64,000 nucleotides of DNA from a virus. The notes beneath the pieces were generated by a model. That model made no database searches and had not been told where the DNA came from. It saw nothing but the letters and a program-made list of their open reading frames with translations. This document shows positions 1 to 14,825 of this stretch, piece by piece; position 1 is the first letter of the stretch, and the number at the start of each line of letters is the position of its first letter. A program made the position numbers and the translations under genes. The stretch covers positions 1 to 64,000 of IMG/VR virus record IMGVR_UViG_3300028045_000007. One strand, given 5' to 3'.

Positions 1-160
1 TATTGTTTTCCTTTATCATGGGATCGATATGATCAATTTCAAGATCATCTTCGCTGCCGCACCAAACGCATGGGCCGTTTTCGTCGAACCATTCTTGACG
101 ACGACGAGCCATCCATTCCCGTTGATAGGCCCTTTGTTTTTCTTTGTCTTTGTATCCCAT
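1..160 (-). CDS. HNH endonuclease, N-terminal part (runs off left edge)
   Basis: Translation of the minus strand from the ATG at 160 gives a basic N-terminus followed by CVWC at residues 32-35 and the HNH-like core DHIDP at residues 43-47, which is the zinc-knuckle plus first His pattern of small phage HNH endonucleases. The gene continues past base 1, so the rest of the beta-beta-alpha metal site is not visible. The start lies only 8 nt after the CCA end of the tRNA-His-like gene, so it probably shares that transcript. There is no good Shine-Dalgarno. Free-standing HNH genes next to tRNAs are common in large phages. Confidence 0.8.
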   Translation of the reverse strand, partial: MGYKDKEKQRAYQREWMARRRQEWFDENGPCVWCGSEDDLEIDHIDPMIKENN

Positions 161-168
161 GATTGTAT

Positions 169-237
169 TGGGGTGGAGCAGGGATTTGCACCCTTCCATT
201 CGGGTCACAGCCGAATTACCCACTTTGGGAACTCCAC
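169..237 (-). tRNA. tRNA-His-like (anticodon GTG), short D arm
   Basis: On the minus strand a 7-bp acceptor (GTGGAGT with GCTCCAC, last pair T-G), an anticodon stem TTCGG/CCGAA closing the 7-nt loop CTGTGAC (anticodon GTG) and a T arm AGGG-TGCAAAT-CCCT can be folded, followed by discriminator C and an encoded CCA at 169-171. C73 is typical of tRNA-His, but the extra G at position -1 is not encoded (the base is T). The D arm is very short (CCC/GGG around a small loop) and the T stem has only 4 good pairs. It could be a degenerate tRNA or a tRNA-like 3' end of the large RNA upstream. Confidence 0.6.
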
Positions 238-1500
238 AGTCCGTTTGCTGCCCTATCGCAGCGGTGTACGTGGAGGGCGGCTTACGTGTCCCCGCCCTCG
301 TTCAATACTCTCCACGTAGAGATCAAGCTTTTCACCTTGATATGAGCCTACGCTCTGTAATCAGTCACGTAGCTGTAGCCGCCATAAAAATCGCGAAACC
401 GTTAACTTCGCGTGCCGCCCCCCTAGCGGGGGAGTGCTCGGATATTTCTACACTACATTCTCATGACTTCCATACGCGGTGCCATGCCTAGGTCGGCTCT
501 CTGCATATGGCGTACTTCTGCCACGGCTTGCCAGCCGCAGCCCAAGTGATGGGTTGGTTTTTTCTTGATTGTACGTATCGCTTACTTAAACGTTATCTTC
601 AGCGATATGCAATCGTGGTCAGCATCCGTTTACCCATCCAAGCCTGCTTTCCGTGTATTTAGGGGGCTATCACAAGTTCTAACCCTGGTTGCTAGTGACC
701 GCCGATATGTGAAACACAATATACATGGTTAGGCGTCTGTGAACACGGTGATTAGCCGCTTCACTAGCTTCGTCTCTGTCGTTGCCTCTCGACTCCCAAC
801 AGCAGGACATAGTGTGTAGTTCATTCTGTGTTCCTTCTGGTGAAGCGATCAACTTCCCATAGGTCGCACGTAGCACTTTGAAAGCTTAGGACAATCGCCG
901 TACTACCCCTCGCGGGACATCTTCTCTTTTTCAAGATCAGATAGAGACGCTTCTGTCCTACACACGCTCGTTTTACTCATCTCAAAGAGATGGGCTTTCC
1001 TAAGATCACATTTTAAACAATGTTAGTTGCTTTTAGCCGTTACTTCGGTAAACGAATAAATCCGCCTTATTCCAAGCTGAATACCCACGGTGACACGTGG
1101 TCTCTTGCCTAAAACTTAATCGTGTGGTTCAGATGCGTCACCATCCTCGGTCACACTCGCCTGCCCAGTTCTCAACAAAACGGTGGACACCGCTCTATTG
1201 AAGACAAGCTTTTCTCTACCATGCGGCCCGCAGGCGACCGACTAACAGTCCTGGCCCAGCTAAAAGCACAGGATTTAGAATGTCCGGAGAACGCGGACAT
1301 ATGCTGGTGCGTCGGGCAGGTACTACCCCTGCTCCATTCCCTTACGGGATATGCCTTACTTACACTACCGACGCATGTTCCTTAGCGGCAGACGCTATGC
1401 GTCTCTGCCGCTATGATTGGTTCCGAGTTGTCAAAGAGAGGCGGCTGTGTTATGCCCTACCGCCTCGTCGGGCTCACCAGCGGCGTTTTCGCCTCCGGTA
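238..1500 (-). ncRNA. Candidate giant structured non-coding RNA
   Basis: This stretch has no credible ORF on either strand but many perfect inverted repeats: 1308-1315 with 1368-1375 (8 bp, enclosing smaller hairpins), 1280-1286 with 1294-1300, 1384-1395 with 1399-1412, 1085-1089 with 1096-1100, 978-983 with 987-992, 322-327 with 336-341, and 267-275 with 310-318 stacked on a GGGCGG/CCGCCC stem. The motif GGGGTAGTAC recurs at about 898-907 and 1321-1330. A strong minus-strand promoter lies at 1506-1533 and a tRNA-His-like gene follows at the 3' end. Size, phage location and tRNA neighbour resemble the GOLLD and ROOL classes of large ornate RNAs, but I cannot assign a class by eye. Confidence 0.65.
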
Positions 1501-1505
1501 TGTAC

Positions 1506-1533
1506 ATTATACACTAGTTTCGGTGTTCGTCAA
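1506..1533 (-). promoter_or_regulatory. Strong sigma70-type promoter for the large RNA
   Basis: Reading the minus strand, TTGACG (1533-1528), a 16-nt spacer and a perfect TATAAT (1511-1506) predict a start near 1499. Nothing coding follows for 1.3 kb, so the product is an RNA. Confidence 0.8.
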
Positions 1534-1603
1534 CTTCTTTTCGAGAAAAAGTTGGGCTGGAGGCCACACAACCCCCAGCCCAGCGGAAACACACGGAGAA
1601 AGA

Positions 1604-2476
1604 TCAGTCGTCCTGGCACTCACCCTCGCACCAATAGTCACCACAATGCTCGCAGTAGTCTTCCGAGTCGCAGTCGTAGTCATCGTCGTCCTGACCTAGA
1701 ACGCAGGGCATCGATTCTCCGATGGATACCTCGGAGCGATAGACGGGCTCCTCGATCAACTTCTCGCACTCCTCGACCACTTCGTACTTGCAAACACGCA
1801 ATTTGGAGCAAGAGCAGTCGAGCGGCACGCTGACAGCATCAGCGGGATTAACTTTAACGAGAACGACTCGACCGTCACTGCCAGCCCAGTCGGTTGCGTA
1901 GCGGTGGGTGCCAACGTGGAACCCATATGAGCAGCCAACGCTATGGTCATCGTTGACCTTGTTGCGAGGCATTTCATTAATGACTCCCACGCTATTGTCG
2001 AATCTGCCAGTGTGCTTGTCTTTCCATTCGGCGGAGATGCCCTTGTAGGCAATGAAGCATCCATCCTCGGTGACGGGGAAGTTGCCGTGTTCCAGGAATC
2101 TGTAAAGCTCATTGACGGCACGTCCGCTCGGATTTGCCATAAGCTTTTCCAGGAAGAGAGCCAGCGGAGCGTAGTCCTCGCCGTTTCGCATGAACTCGCC
2201 AATGCGGTCTGCGAGCACGTTGTTGATCTGCTCTCCATTCCAGAAGACCTCACCATACGGATTAACAGTAATGCCATTCAGTTCGCGTTCTATCGTAGTG
2301 GCAGGATTGAGCAGATCGTCGAGCCGATCGTAGCCAGACTTGTTGGACAAGATACTTGCAATCGGACCATAGTTCGGATGGGTGAGACCAAGCGAGTGGG
2401 TCTGACCGTTCCAGACCAGATTGATGTTGCCGTCAGCAGTGGTGATGTACGTGGGCTTTTTCTTTTTCCAGAACAT
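1604..2476 (-). CDS. rIIB: rIIB-like protein
   Basis: About 290 residues, starting at the ATG that yields MFWKKKKPTY. It lies one base behind the stop of the rIIA homologue (TAA-T-ATG) and is preceded by GGAG within that gene. The rIIA-rIIB order, length near the 312 residues of T4 rIIB and the late central motif FIAYKG followed by a His-rich conserved block (GFHVGTHRYA) support the call. In T4 the pair blocks Rex-type exclusion by a resident prophage. The C-terminus is an unusual Asp/Glu/Cys tail with CEHCGDYWCEGEC, a possible metal-binding knuckle. A longer in-frame N-terminal extension overlapping rIIA is possible but unlikely. Confidence 0.8.
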   Translation of the reverse strand: MFWKKKKPTYITTADGNINLVWNGQTHSLGLTHPNYGPIASILSNKSGYDRLDDLLNPATTIERELNGITVNPYGEVFWNGEQINNVLADRIGEFMRNGEDYAPLALFLEKLMANPSGRAVNELYRFLEHGNFPVTEDGCFIAYKGISAEWKDKHTGRFDNSVGVINEMPRNKVNDDHSVGCSYGFHVGTHRYATDWAGSDGRVVLVKVNPADAVSVPLDCSCSKLRVCKYEVVEECEKLIEEPVYRSEVSIGESMPCVLGQDDDDYDCDSEDYCEHCGDYWCEGECQDD

Positions 2477-2477
2477 A

Positions 2478-4409
2478 TTAGTTTTTCTCCTTGAGAGTGA
2501 TGTACTCAACAATGTCTGCCACGTTGACGTGACGAATTTGAATCTGCGAAAGTAGAGGATAACGTTCACGAAACAGTTCACAGTAATCAGGAGTGTCTGA
2601 TGGGTCGGGCACAACTAGATCGAACATCGCGAACATTGATTTAATAGTATTGCCGATGCGAGACGCTTTGGACATTGCTACCAAGTCGTCGCACACGGGC
2701 GACATATTCTTGATGGCATGGATGAGCATTGCCGGAAATGTGTAAGAGTCAAAGCTGTGTTGCATGCGACTCAGTTCGTACTTGGTCAGTAACGTTAGAC
2801 GCTTTTCTGCATACTTCTTTGCTTCGGTCTCGAAATCAGCCAGACCCAGTTTGTTACTGAGACGCTTGTAGTGCTTGTCGGCAATGCCGTAAACGGTATC
2901 GTATCCCATGGCTTGAGCAATTGCCAGGATTTCCCAAGCATTACGCTCTCTACCCTTGACCATGACGTTCCAACCAGTACGAGGTATGGCAATTGCTTTA
3001 GTGGTTTCTACCTTGTCTTCATCGACACGAGACCATTGATCCGCCTTGGAGCCACTGTATCCAGTAATGCTCTTAAAGAAGGAACGAGTGCCAGTGAACT
3101 TCTTTCGTTCACTCTGGGGAGCGTCGGGAAGCTCACTTATTCTGATGCTCGGCTCTCCGAACACCTGGGTGAAGCGAACCTCGTCCTCAACGTCGGCGAG
3201 GTACATGATGCCCTCTTGGGAACTCAACCAGTAGCGAAGCCGATTCTTGTAGGCTTGCGTCATCTTGACATCGCAGTGGACGATGACGTAATCAGTATAC
3301 TCGCTCGGCTGGAGCGATTCACGCCAGCGGTCTTGTCCGATGCAGAGCTTATTGCCCTTGAGCTTCATGCACTTGAGTTCGTACTTGCCCGATTCCTTAA
3401 TGGAAATGGATTTTTTTCCGGCGGGCAGGTCCCATACGTTACTGAAGCGTTGACGATTCCTGATCTCGGCCATGACACTAATGTCACCAGTCAGTTGTGC
3501 GTCAATCTTTACCTGAACGTCTTTCGATACCTTGTCCAGATGAGATTGAATATTGGCAATCGTGCGTTCGTTATAGTGAAGCTCCTCGCGGCTCACTGCA
3601 AAGTCACATTCGCCATTGTTAACAAACAAGATCAGGGCTCCACTCTGTCCCAGTTTGATCTTGAAGTGTTCCGTTGCCACAGTGTAGCGGACGTTACCCA
3701 TAACCACATTGATGCGGGAGGGAACACCAGCTTCTTGGCGATTGGAGTAAAGCTTGTAGTGAGCATGTTCGAAAAGAGGCTCGCACTCCTCGAATTCGAC
3801 GTTAGCCCCAGTGATCTTGGGACACATAGGCATAAATCGATACACCTTTTGTGCGGCACGCTGCCACTCGTACTCATCGCCAGCCTTGACTTGAACTGTG
3901 ATTTCAAGACCATTCGGTTCGTCAGTGGCATTGGTATCCATCAGGGCGATACGCGGCTCGCCAGTTTCGTTCCTATATGCGGAGTACGTATAGGAGGTAC
4001 CGTTCCAATAGGACGTTACCATGAACTGGTCCGTAAGAGCGAAGGGCGATTTCGAGCCCAAACCAAGGCGACCGATGAAATCGTCAGAATCACTCCTGGT
4101 GGACTCGAAGTACGTAGTGTAAACGTGCTTCACGTCTTCGGGCGAGAGTCCCGTGCCGTAGTCGCGGACCTTGAAAAAGGAAGCAAAGGAGTTGGGCATG
4201 TGAACATCGAAGGGCTTGTCGGTGGTGCCAGCTTCGACTTGAGCGTCATACGCATTGGTAGACAACTCTCTTACGACCGCAAGGATGGGGTCGGTGTACA
4301 GGCGGCTGGAGAGCACTTCGAAGGCGTGTGCGTTGGCCGCGATGGTGAAGTTGCTTTCGGAGAAGTCTCCCGACCGCTCGATGGTTCTGTCTTTAGTGTG
4401 TAGCTTCAT
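2478..4409 (-). CDS. rIIA: rIIA-like GHKL-type ATPase
   Basis: About 643 residues. The N-terminal 200 residues carry the Bergerat (GHKL) ATP-binding fold: ELSTNAYDA at 48-56 (N box, Asn and Asp for Mg and adenine), DYGTG at 83-87 (G1 box) and GLGSKSPFAL at 115-124 (G2 box). T4 rIIA has the same architecture and acts with rIIB at the membrane. The ATG at 4409 is chosen because AAGGGA lies about 6 nt upstream; an ATG 14 codons earlier lacks a site and overlaps the promoter. Transcription comes from the promoter at 4437-4464. Confidence 0.85.
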   Translation of the reverse strand: MKLHTKDRTIERSGDFSESNFTIAANAHAFEVLSSRLYTDPILAVVRELSTNAYDAQVEAGTTDKPFDVHMPNSFASFFKVRDYGTGLSPEDVKHVYTTYFESTRSDSDDFIGRLGLGSKSPFALTDQFMVTSYWNGTSYTYSAYRNETGEPRIALMDTNATDEPNGLEITVQVKAGDEYEWQRAAQKVYRFMPMCPKITGANVEFEECEPLFEHAHYKLYSNRQEAGVPSRINVVMGNVRYTVATEHFKIKLGQSGALILFVNNGECDFAVSREELHYNERTIANIQSHLDKVSKDVQVKIDAQLTGDISVMAEIRNRQRFSNVWDLPAGKKSISIKESGKYELKCMKLKGNKLCIGQDRWRESLQPSEYTDYVIVHCDVKMTQAYKNRLRYWLSSQEGIMYLADVEDEVRFTQVFGEPSIRISELPDAPQSERKKFTGTRSFFKSITGYSGSKADQWSRVDEDKVETTKAIAIPRTGWNVMVKGRERNAWEILAIAQAMGYDTVYGIADKHYKRLSNKLGLADFETEAKKYAEKRLTLLTKYELSRMQHSFDSYTFPAMLIHAIKNMSPVCDDLVAMSKASRIGNTIKSMFAMFDLVVPDPSDTPDYCELFRERYPLLSQIQIRHVNVADIVEYITLKEKN

Positions 4410-14567: not shown

Positions 14568-14595
14568 TTGACTTTCGAGTACCATGGGGTATACT
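14568..14595 (+). promoter_or_regulatory. Promoter of the interrupted tRNA-like RNA
   Basis: TTGACT (14568-14573), 16 nt, TATACT (14590-14595). The tRNA-like 5' end lies about 35 nt downstream. Confidence 0.75.
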
Positions 14596-14630
14596 GTCAC
14601 TGTTGAGGAGAGGAGATTGAAAACTCAGAT

Positions 14631-14825
14631 GGGGGGATAGCTCAATTGGTTAGAGCGGGTCGCCGCAAGGCGATGTCCTCAAGTCTTAGCCAGACTGTCG
14701 CACGGTTAGCTCCCGTGACGCATAGGAAAGCACCGGGGGGTTGCTCCCCTGAGAGACGAACAGGAATACAATATAACTCGAGGTTATTGTATCGGTTGCA
14801 GGTTCGAACCCTGCTCACCCCACCA
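14631..14825 (+). tRNA. Interrupted tRNA or tRNA-like RNA (195 nt)
   Basis: The 5' part is a normal tRNA half: acceptor GGGGGGA, TA, D arm GCTC-AATTGGTTA-GAGC (14631-14656). The 3' part is equally normal: variable CGGTT, T arm GCAGG-TTCGAAC-CCTGC, acceptor TCACCCC, A, encoded CCA (14793-14825). One acceptor pair (G5 x A68) is mismatched. About 108 nt of GC-rich, stem-forming sequence separate the D arm from an ATACA/TGTAT stem (14766-14770 with 14788-14792) that would be the anticodon stem with an oversized 17-nt loop. No anticodon can be assigned. An intron, or a dedicated tRNA mimic, are the options. Confidence 0.6.

Follow-up and report, generated by a model that had tools for sequence, protein, structure and literature searches.

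A candidate giant structured non-coding RNA with an rRNA-type boxA leader, encoded beside tRNA genes in an uncultured phage

What occupies the long stretch between the rIIB gene and a tRNA gene near one end of this viral sequence? The window, meaning the whole stretch of DNA analysed, takes up the initial 64 kb of a linear record (154,408 bases) of an uncultured virus, the contig ends of which do not join. A preliminary description had placed here a candidate giant structured non-coding RNA that follows a strong promoter and runs up to a tRNA, and this is still the best reading, supported by covariation and by a non-coding pattern. The locus lies on the minus strand at about 1499-238 (about 1.26 kb), flanked by the rIIB terminator and a degenerate tRNA-His(GTG). 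Along that strand, rIIA and rIIB are followed by a hairpin, a promoter, the stretch of about 1.26 kb without a notable ORF, tRNA-His(GTG) and an HNH gene. The individual features are given below, with related phages denoted G001, G002 and so on.

4391-1604, minus strand: rIIA-rIIB unit, from PHROGs matches
1604-2494, minus strand: rIIB, from a PHROGs match
1553-1582, minus strand: intrinsic-terminator-like hairpin closing the upstream rIIA-rIIB unit (13-pair stem, 4-nt loop, T-rich tail)
1506-1533, minus strand: sigma-70-type promoter TTGACG-16-TATAAT (11/12 matches), predicted start about 1499
1438-1499, minus strand: 5' leader with G+C-rich hairpins
1427-1437, minus strand: rRNA-type boxA TCTTTGACAAC, the sole copy on both strands of the 64-kb window
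1383-1413, minus strand: post-boxA hairpin, inner part GAGACGC...AGCGTC; same hairpin in G001, G002 and G004
1305-1376 (also given as 1374-1305), minus strand: tRNA-like cloverleaf ending CACCA; 24 pairs, 10 with compensatory double changes in the window, G002 and G008
1122-1299, minus strand: core block B, 74% identical to G001 (E 5e-30); 18/37 pairs with double changes in 4 phages
953-1121, minus strand: core middle block, common to the window, G008 and G013
822-952, minus strand: core block C, 5' half (model R1); 39 pairs, 18 covarying, equalled in 0/500 shuffles
665-830, minus strand: core block C, 3' half, with a possible pseudoknot; 42 pairs, 9 with double changes; 76% identical to G008 (E 5e-51)
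264-664, minus strand: 3' variable domain, defined by its fold only, no homologue found
247-263, minus strand: 3'-terminal hairpin CGCTGCRATAGGGCAGC, shared with the G002 RNA, again at its 3' end
169-237, minus strand: degenerate tRNA-His(GTG), 69 bases (ARAGORN, 90% threshold)
2-162, minus strand: small downstream HNH endonuclease gene, cut by the contig end (PHROG 4234, E 5e-15)

The promoter, earlier called near-perfect, is indeed the best site in the region, and a promoter element precedes the locus at the same position in relatives too. Between the giant RNA and tRNA-His no terminator-like site was found.

The coding potential of the locus was assessed in several ways. The absence of any ORF of note over more than 1.2 kb, as first described, holds: no sense ORF in 238-1500 exceeds 65 aa, and no other ORF-free gap in the window is as large, whether ORFs of at least 70 or of at least 90 aa are counted. 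Antisense ORFs within 238-1500 reach 87 aa and others of 115-139 aa overlap the ends of the region; none of the ORFs tested at the locus matched Pfam. Could the locus nevertheless encode one protein, or several small ones? In G013 one frame runs open through 200 codons of the core, but it is not kept in the window or in G008 and has no match in PHROGs. Mismatches between the window and G008 fall evenly over the three frame positions of the core (0.365/0.380/0.399), unlike those in the terminase gene of the same phage pair (0.33/0.21/0.63), which argues that the core is not coding. In addition, many indels in the core alignment are not multiples of three and break the frame. With codon phase thus ignored, there is no sign of the conserved protein-coding frame that the preliminary description had set against its own proposal. 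Judged from these patterns the locus is non-coding, and the protein explanation is contradicted to the point of being extremely improbable.

Relatives were gathered through the terminase, first 11 and then 22 among viral contigs, at 38-79% identity, and their whole records were searched with the giant RNA as query. Matches were strong but patchy: 76% identity over query positions 576-866 in G008 (E 5e-51), 86% over 94-227 in G002 (E 9e-40), 74% over 232-450 in G001 (E 5e-30) and 73% over 567-796 in G013 (E 6e-24), with G004 linked indirectly through G008, G013 and G001. The locus lies downstream of rIIB and upstream of tRNAs in G001, G002 and G004, where other parts of the RNA occupy the same position. 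Transfer RNAs are also found downstream of the core in G013 and in G008, the latter having a tRNA-like gene between leader and core as well, while G003, G007 and G010 retain both the promoter and the tRNA array, their structured stretch being shorter. The full core is common to three phages only, namely the window, G008 and G013. Among 27 records, the model R1 matches at E about 1e-36 in G000, G008 and G013 only; it leaves the core undetected in G001, G002 and G004, which are therefore best seen as partial, mosaic members.

Beyond this phage clade the core was not found in pattern and model searches. A blastn comparison of the giant RNA with 50,697 phage records gave no match, and pattern searches for conserved strings of the core, in viral as well as genome contigs, returned known members only. 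Pattern matches in L055 and L094 were rejected as coding-like sequence of unrelated contigs, and those in L104/L106 as part of a protein gene; R1 matched none of the other pattern matches. A weak match in G015 was set aside as a chance partial hairpin match. For the 400 nt at the 3' end (264-664) no homologue was found.

Does the conserved region fold? The core alignment of the window, G008 and G013 (603-635 nt, 639 columns, 57-62% pairwise identity) was analysed with RNAalifold, which predicts 165 pairs; in 67 of these both partners have changed, with pairing preserved, in at least one sequence. Covarying pairs number 18/39 in block C (A4), the 131 best-conserved columns, which constitute R1, as against a shuffled mean of 8.2, and none of 500 shuffles reaches 18; sliding one strand of the helices reduces paired cells from 95% to 40-57%. 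Double changes are likewise seen in 9 of the 42 pairs of the 3' half of block C and, across four phages, in 18 of the 37 pairs of block B. The outer stem of the post-boxA hairpin is fully different yet paired in G001 and G004, with the inner GAGACGC...AGCGTC kept. The many pairable stems noticed at the outset are thus not only present but conserved by covariation, and the covariation in homologues is strong.

Consensus folding energies are low on the sense strand (z of -4.3 to -6.2 against column shuffles) and also on the antisense of the same alignment (z of -3.4 to -4.4), as the stems would be expected to produce, so that the strand assignment rests on the promoter and boxA. Folding of single sequences is unremarkable (mean z -1.5 sense and -1.6 antisense, background -0.8), the evidence for structure being comparative. 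This unexceptional folding, the degenerate tRNA-like pieces in several members and the patchy, mosaic homology are what a decayed tRNA array, or drifting intergenic DNA folding by chance, might leave behind. Compensatory changes on such a scale are, however, unexpected in drifting DNA, and promoter and boxA are conserved; we consider decay or drift very improbable. That the locus specifies a real structured non-coding RNA seems to us highly probable.

One claim fared less well. The preliminary description had pointed to a repeated motif, GGGGTAGTAC, in two hairpin contexts, and two copies are present, but neither is conserved: at the first place G002 reads GGAGGTAGTGCC and G008 reads GGAGAATGACC, and at the second G008 reads GGGGTATTGC. 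A functional repeat was accordingly rejected in favour of coincidence. The conclusion that the RNA is structured is independent of that argument.

Within 665-830 (-), two retained pairings, GCTAGTGA/TCACTAGC and GTGAAGCGG/CCGTGTTCAC, have bases in common; a further pairing of CTAACC with GGTTAG would be feasible across them, G013 lacking both sides. The sequence of this element would be compatible with a pseudoknot or a switch.

Near the 5' end, following the hairpin or leader, a cloverleaf is seen in the window, G002 and G008, with a 7-bp acceptor, an A and CCA; covariation affects 10 of its 24 pairs in these three phages. In the window its anticodon arm is shortened (4-bp/4-nt), its T loop reads GGTAGTA and there are no canonical D/T loops; ARAGORN does not call it even at a 50% threshold. 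It is for these reasons described as tRNA-like only. Two hairpins take its place in G013. The domain may derive from a tRNA gene that was domesticated, or it may serve as a signal for processing. After the G008 core, at about 4300-4369 (+) of L052, there is a second tRNA-like stem set ending CACCA, whose acceptor TGCGTCGG is identical to that of the window's tRNA-like domain; tRNA-like cassettes may move within the locus.

The tRNA-His-like gene reported at the 3' end is confirmed as tRNA-His(gtg) at 169-237(-) by ARAGORN at the 90% threshold, having been missed by default ARAGORN and by a gathering-threshold Rfam scan. G002 also carries a tRNA-His downstream of its copy of the RNA. The 5' end of tRNA-His probably sets the 3' end of the giant RNA through cleavage by RNase P. 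At the level of sequence, then, the locus is established as an independent non-coding unit with a conserved fold, a promoter, a boxA and a tRNA context.

Is this RNA already known under another name? Rfam 15 was searched with the window locus, G001 and G008 up to E 10, returning only tRNAs and chance matches. No family matches the locus, GOLLD, ROOL, HEARO and OLE included, nor do the models of group I/II introns or any other Rfam 15 family. Among the closest known systems are GOLLD and ROOL, RNA-only cages encoded near phage tRNA islands (PMC12286853). GOLLD (RF02032) is a giant, often >800 nt, structured RNA of phages and prophages found near tRNA islands, sometimes with tRNAs inside it or in linkers, and has a conserved and a variable part (PMC12286853); the present RNA shares the phage location near tRNA genes and is likewise longer than 800 nt. 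GOLLD conserves its 3' part, whereas here the core is 5' or central and the 3' part varies. ROOL (RF03087) is similarly an ornate phage-borne RNA often near tRNA islands, forming an RNA-only nanocage (PMC12286853), but the RNA described here is longer and has a boxA leader and a tRNA-like domain. A very divergent GOLLD or ROOL RNA would account for size class, phage context and tRNA neighbourhood, and tRNAs occur in GOLLD linkers too (PMC12286853). The two models are, however, silent at the window locus even at E 10, and in 17 related records neither reaches significance at the RNA, searches in which neither model had a positive control. We regard such a divergent member as improbable.

Two further phage RNAs offer analogies. 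Staphylococcus phage K lnc002 and the ncRNA of Vibrio phage ICP1 are abundant ORF-less transcripts of about 0.8-1.15 kb whose expression has been shown. In phage K the promoter-ncRNA-tRNA layout is the same, three tRNA genes following directly; the ICP1 ncRNA (about 0.8 kb), unlike the present one, is without tRNAs. Neither has significant sequence similarity to the giant RNA, nor a TTTGANAAC boxA, and the idea that boxA is common to known phage ncRNAs was rejected for its absence from both. These RNAs, comparable in size and setting, rank first or near the top in abundance among the transcripts of their phages (PMC7567579, PMC9241854), which by analogy makes high expression of the giant RNA plausible. 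Searches of Rfam, of phage records and of open papers turned up neither this class nor its boxA leader nor the tRNA-like domain inside it. Giant phage ncRNAs beside tRNAs are a known kind, and this particular class is best read as new.

HNH genes flank or interrupt the locus repeatedly (L045, L046, L048; window 2-162 (-)), on differing sides and strands: they lie beside it in G000, G001 and G002 and inside it in G004. An intron, the RNA of a homing element or an HNH-associated guide RNA of the HEARO/omegaRNA type could explain this proximity. With no intron or HEARO match in Rfam, and with HNH genes that differ in best family match, place and strand and so look like passengers, we give that explanation very little credence. 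Their recurrence in varied arrangements suggests that the locus is a homing hot spot, and homing may explain the mosaic pattern of homology.

The leader deserves separate attention. The boxA TCTTTGACAAC at 1437-1427(-) lies about 60-62 nt from the predicted start. For comparison, Gram-positive rRNA leaders read TCTTTGAAAAC at boxA. The sequence TCTTTGA[C/A]AA occurs once each in the examined stretches of G002, G007, G010, G008 and G013, at the equivalent place and always between the promoter and the RNA or tRNAs. The six loci sharing it are 1-2 mismatches from GYTCTTTAANA, a gamma-proteobacterial consensus (PMC5725501) that may not be that of the host. With the consensus at a conserved place in the leader, the element is classed as an rRNA-type boxA. 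G001 and G004 keep GACAACT[C/T]GGGAT, and boxA is absent from G003 and G005. The possibility that the element is a second promoter was rejected, since in no member is there a -10 at promoter distance. BoxA binds NusB and S10 (NusE), a complex thought to block Rho in pre-rRNA (PMC4807359, PMC10250234). As a long untranslated phage RNA meets the same Rho problem as pre-rRNA, antitermination would be the economical reading, and we think it more likely than not that the boxA is functional. The likeness is to the leader of bacterial rRNA operons (boxB-boxA-boxC), where boxA precedes a long untranslated RNA cotranscribed with tRNAs (PMC10250234, PMC5725501); the RNA here differs in being phage-encoded and not rRNA, and boxB and boxC were not identified.

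Two observations concern boxA more generally. In L050 and L051, tRNA arrays without the giant RNA still begin with promoter, leader and TCTTTGACAAC, so a boxA of rRNA type may be shared by tRNA operons throughout this group of phages. The window itself contains a second small stable-RNA unit at 14568-14822 (+), comprising a promoter-like TTGACT-16-TATACT, a boxA-like TTGAAAACTC at 14617 and, next, a tRNA gene that scores 34.7 bits with Rfam tRNA and has about 118 extra bases in the anticodon/variable region, for which no intron family matched.

Might the whole locus be simply an extended 5' leader or a spacer in a tRNA operon, giving an RNA that is structured and made but then removed and destroyed, and that serves only antitermination and processing? 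The tRNA arrays of G007 and G010 have the same promoter-leader-boxA arrangement with only short structured leaders, the length of the locus varies widely, and in the window a tRNA-like gene elsewhere is preceded by its own promoter and boxA-like element. A leader would not, however, need a conserved multi-helix body of about 600 nt with 67 covarying pairs, and that body is conserved independently of the neighbouring tRNAs. We therefore think a mere leader unlikely.

The best reading is instead a new class of giant structured phage RNA, with antitermination in the style of rRNA and trimming by tRNA-processing enzymes. We infer transcription, antitermination, processing, assembly and function as follows. 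The strong sigma-70 promoter behind the rIIB terminator would start the RNA at about 1499 on the minus strand, to continue to about 238, the giant RNA being the first product of a stable-RNA operon. BoxA in the leader would recruit the host NusB/S10 antitermination complex, allowing the long untranslated RNA to escape Rho and fold during synthesis, as pre-rRNA does. It would fold into the conserved multi-helix body, with the tRNA-like domain near its 5' end, and be freed by an RNase P cut at tRNA-His and perhaps also at the tRNA-like domain. The freed body would be a structural RNA, probably a self-assembling or a ribosome/tRNA-binding scaffold during infection, as proposed for GOLLD and ROOL. 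This whole explanation, of a giant ncRNA antiterminated via boxA, freed by RNase P and probably a structural scaffold, we hold to be likely. That the RNA forms an RNA assembly is a tentative suggestion. Similarly speculative is the broader idea of a third giant phage RNA class, distinct from GOLLD and ROOL, that takes over host rRNA antitermination through its own boxA, has a tRNA-like domain and might either form its assembly around ribosomes or tRNAs or act on them.

If that idea were true, the phage would make and co-transcriptionally fold an RNA machine in the way the cell makes its rRNA. Giant structured RNAs have only recently become a puzzle of phage biology; to our knowledge, two classes form RNA-only cages and the function of none is known. 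The occurrence of a third class, unrelated to these, in that same setting in the genome would point to convergence on a need for such RNAs next to phage tRNAs. From the boxA leader comes a concrete and testable hint as to how a giant RNA is made, tied to ribosomal RNA synthesis, and the alignments and model are starting material for probing and structural work.

Finally, a 63-nt element, GGCAYGGAGRGTGGWGCTTAGCGG...CYCTCCACCGAACA, is found at 90% identity in the RNA/tRNA loci of L048 (G004) and L088 (G013; G013:C1:37655-37717), and is perhaps a small mobile hairpin RNA.
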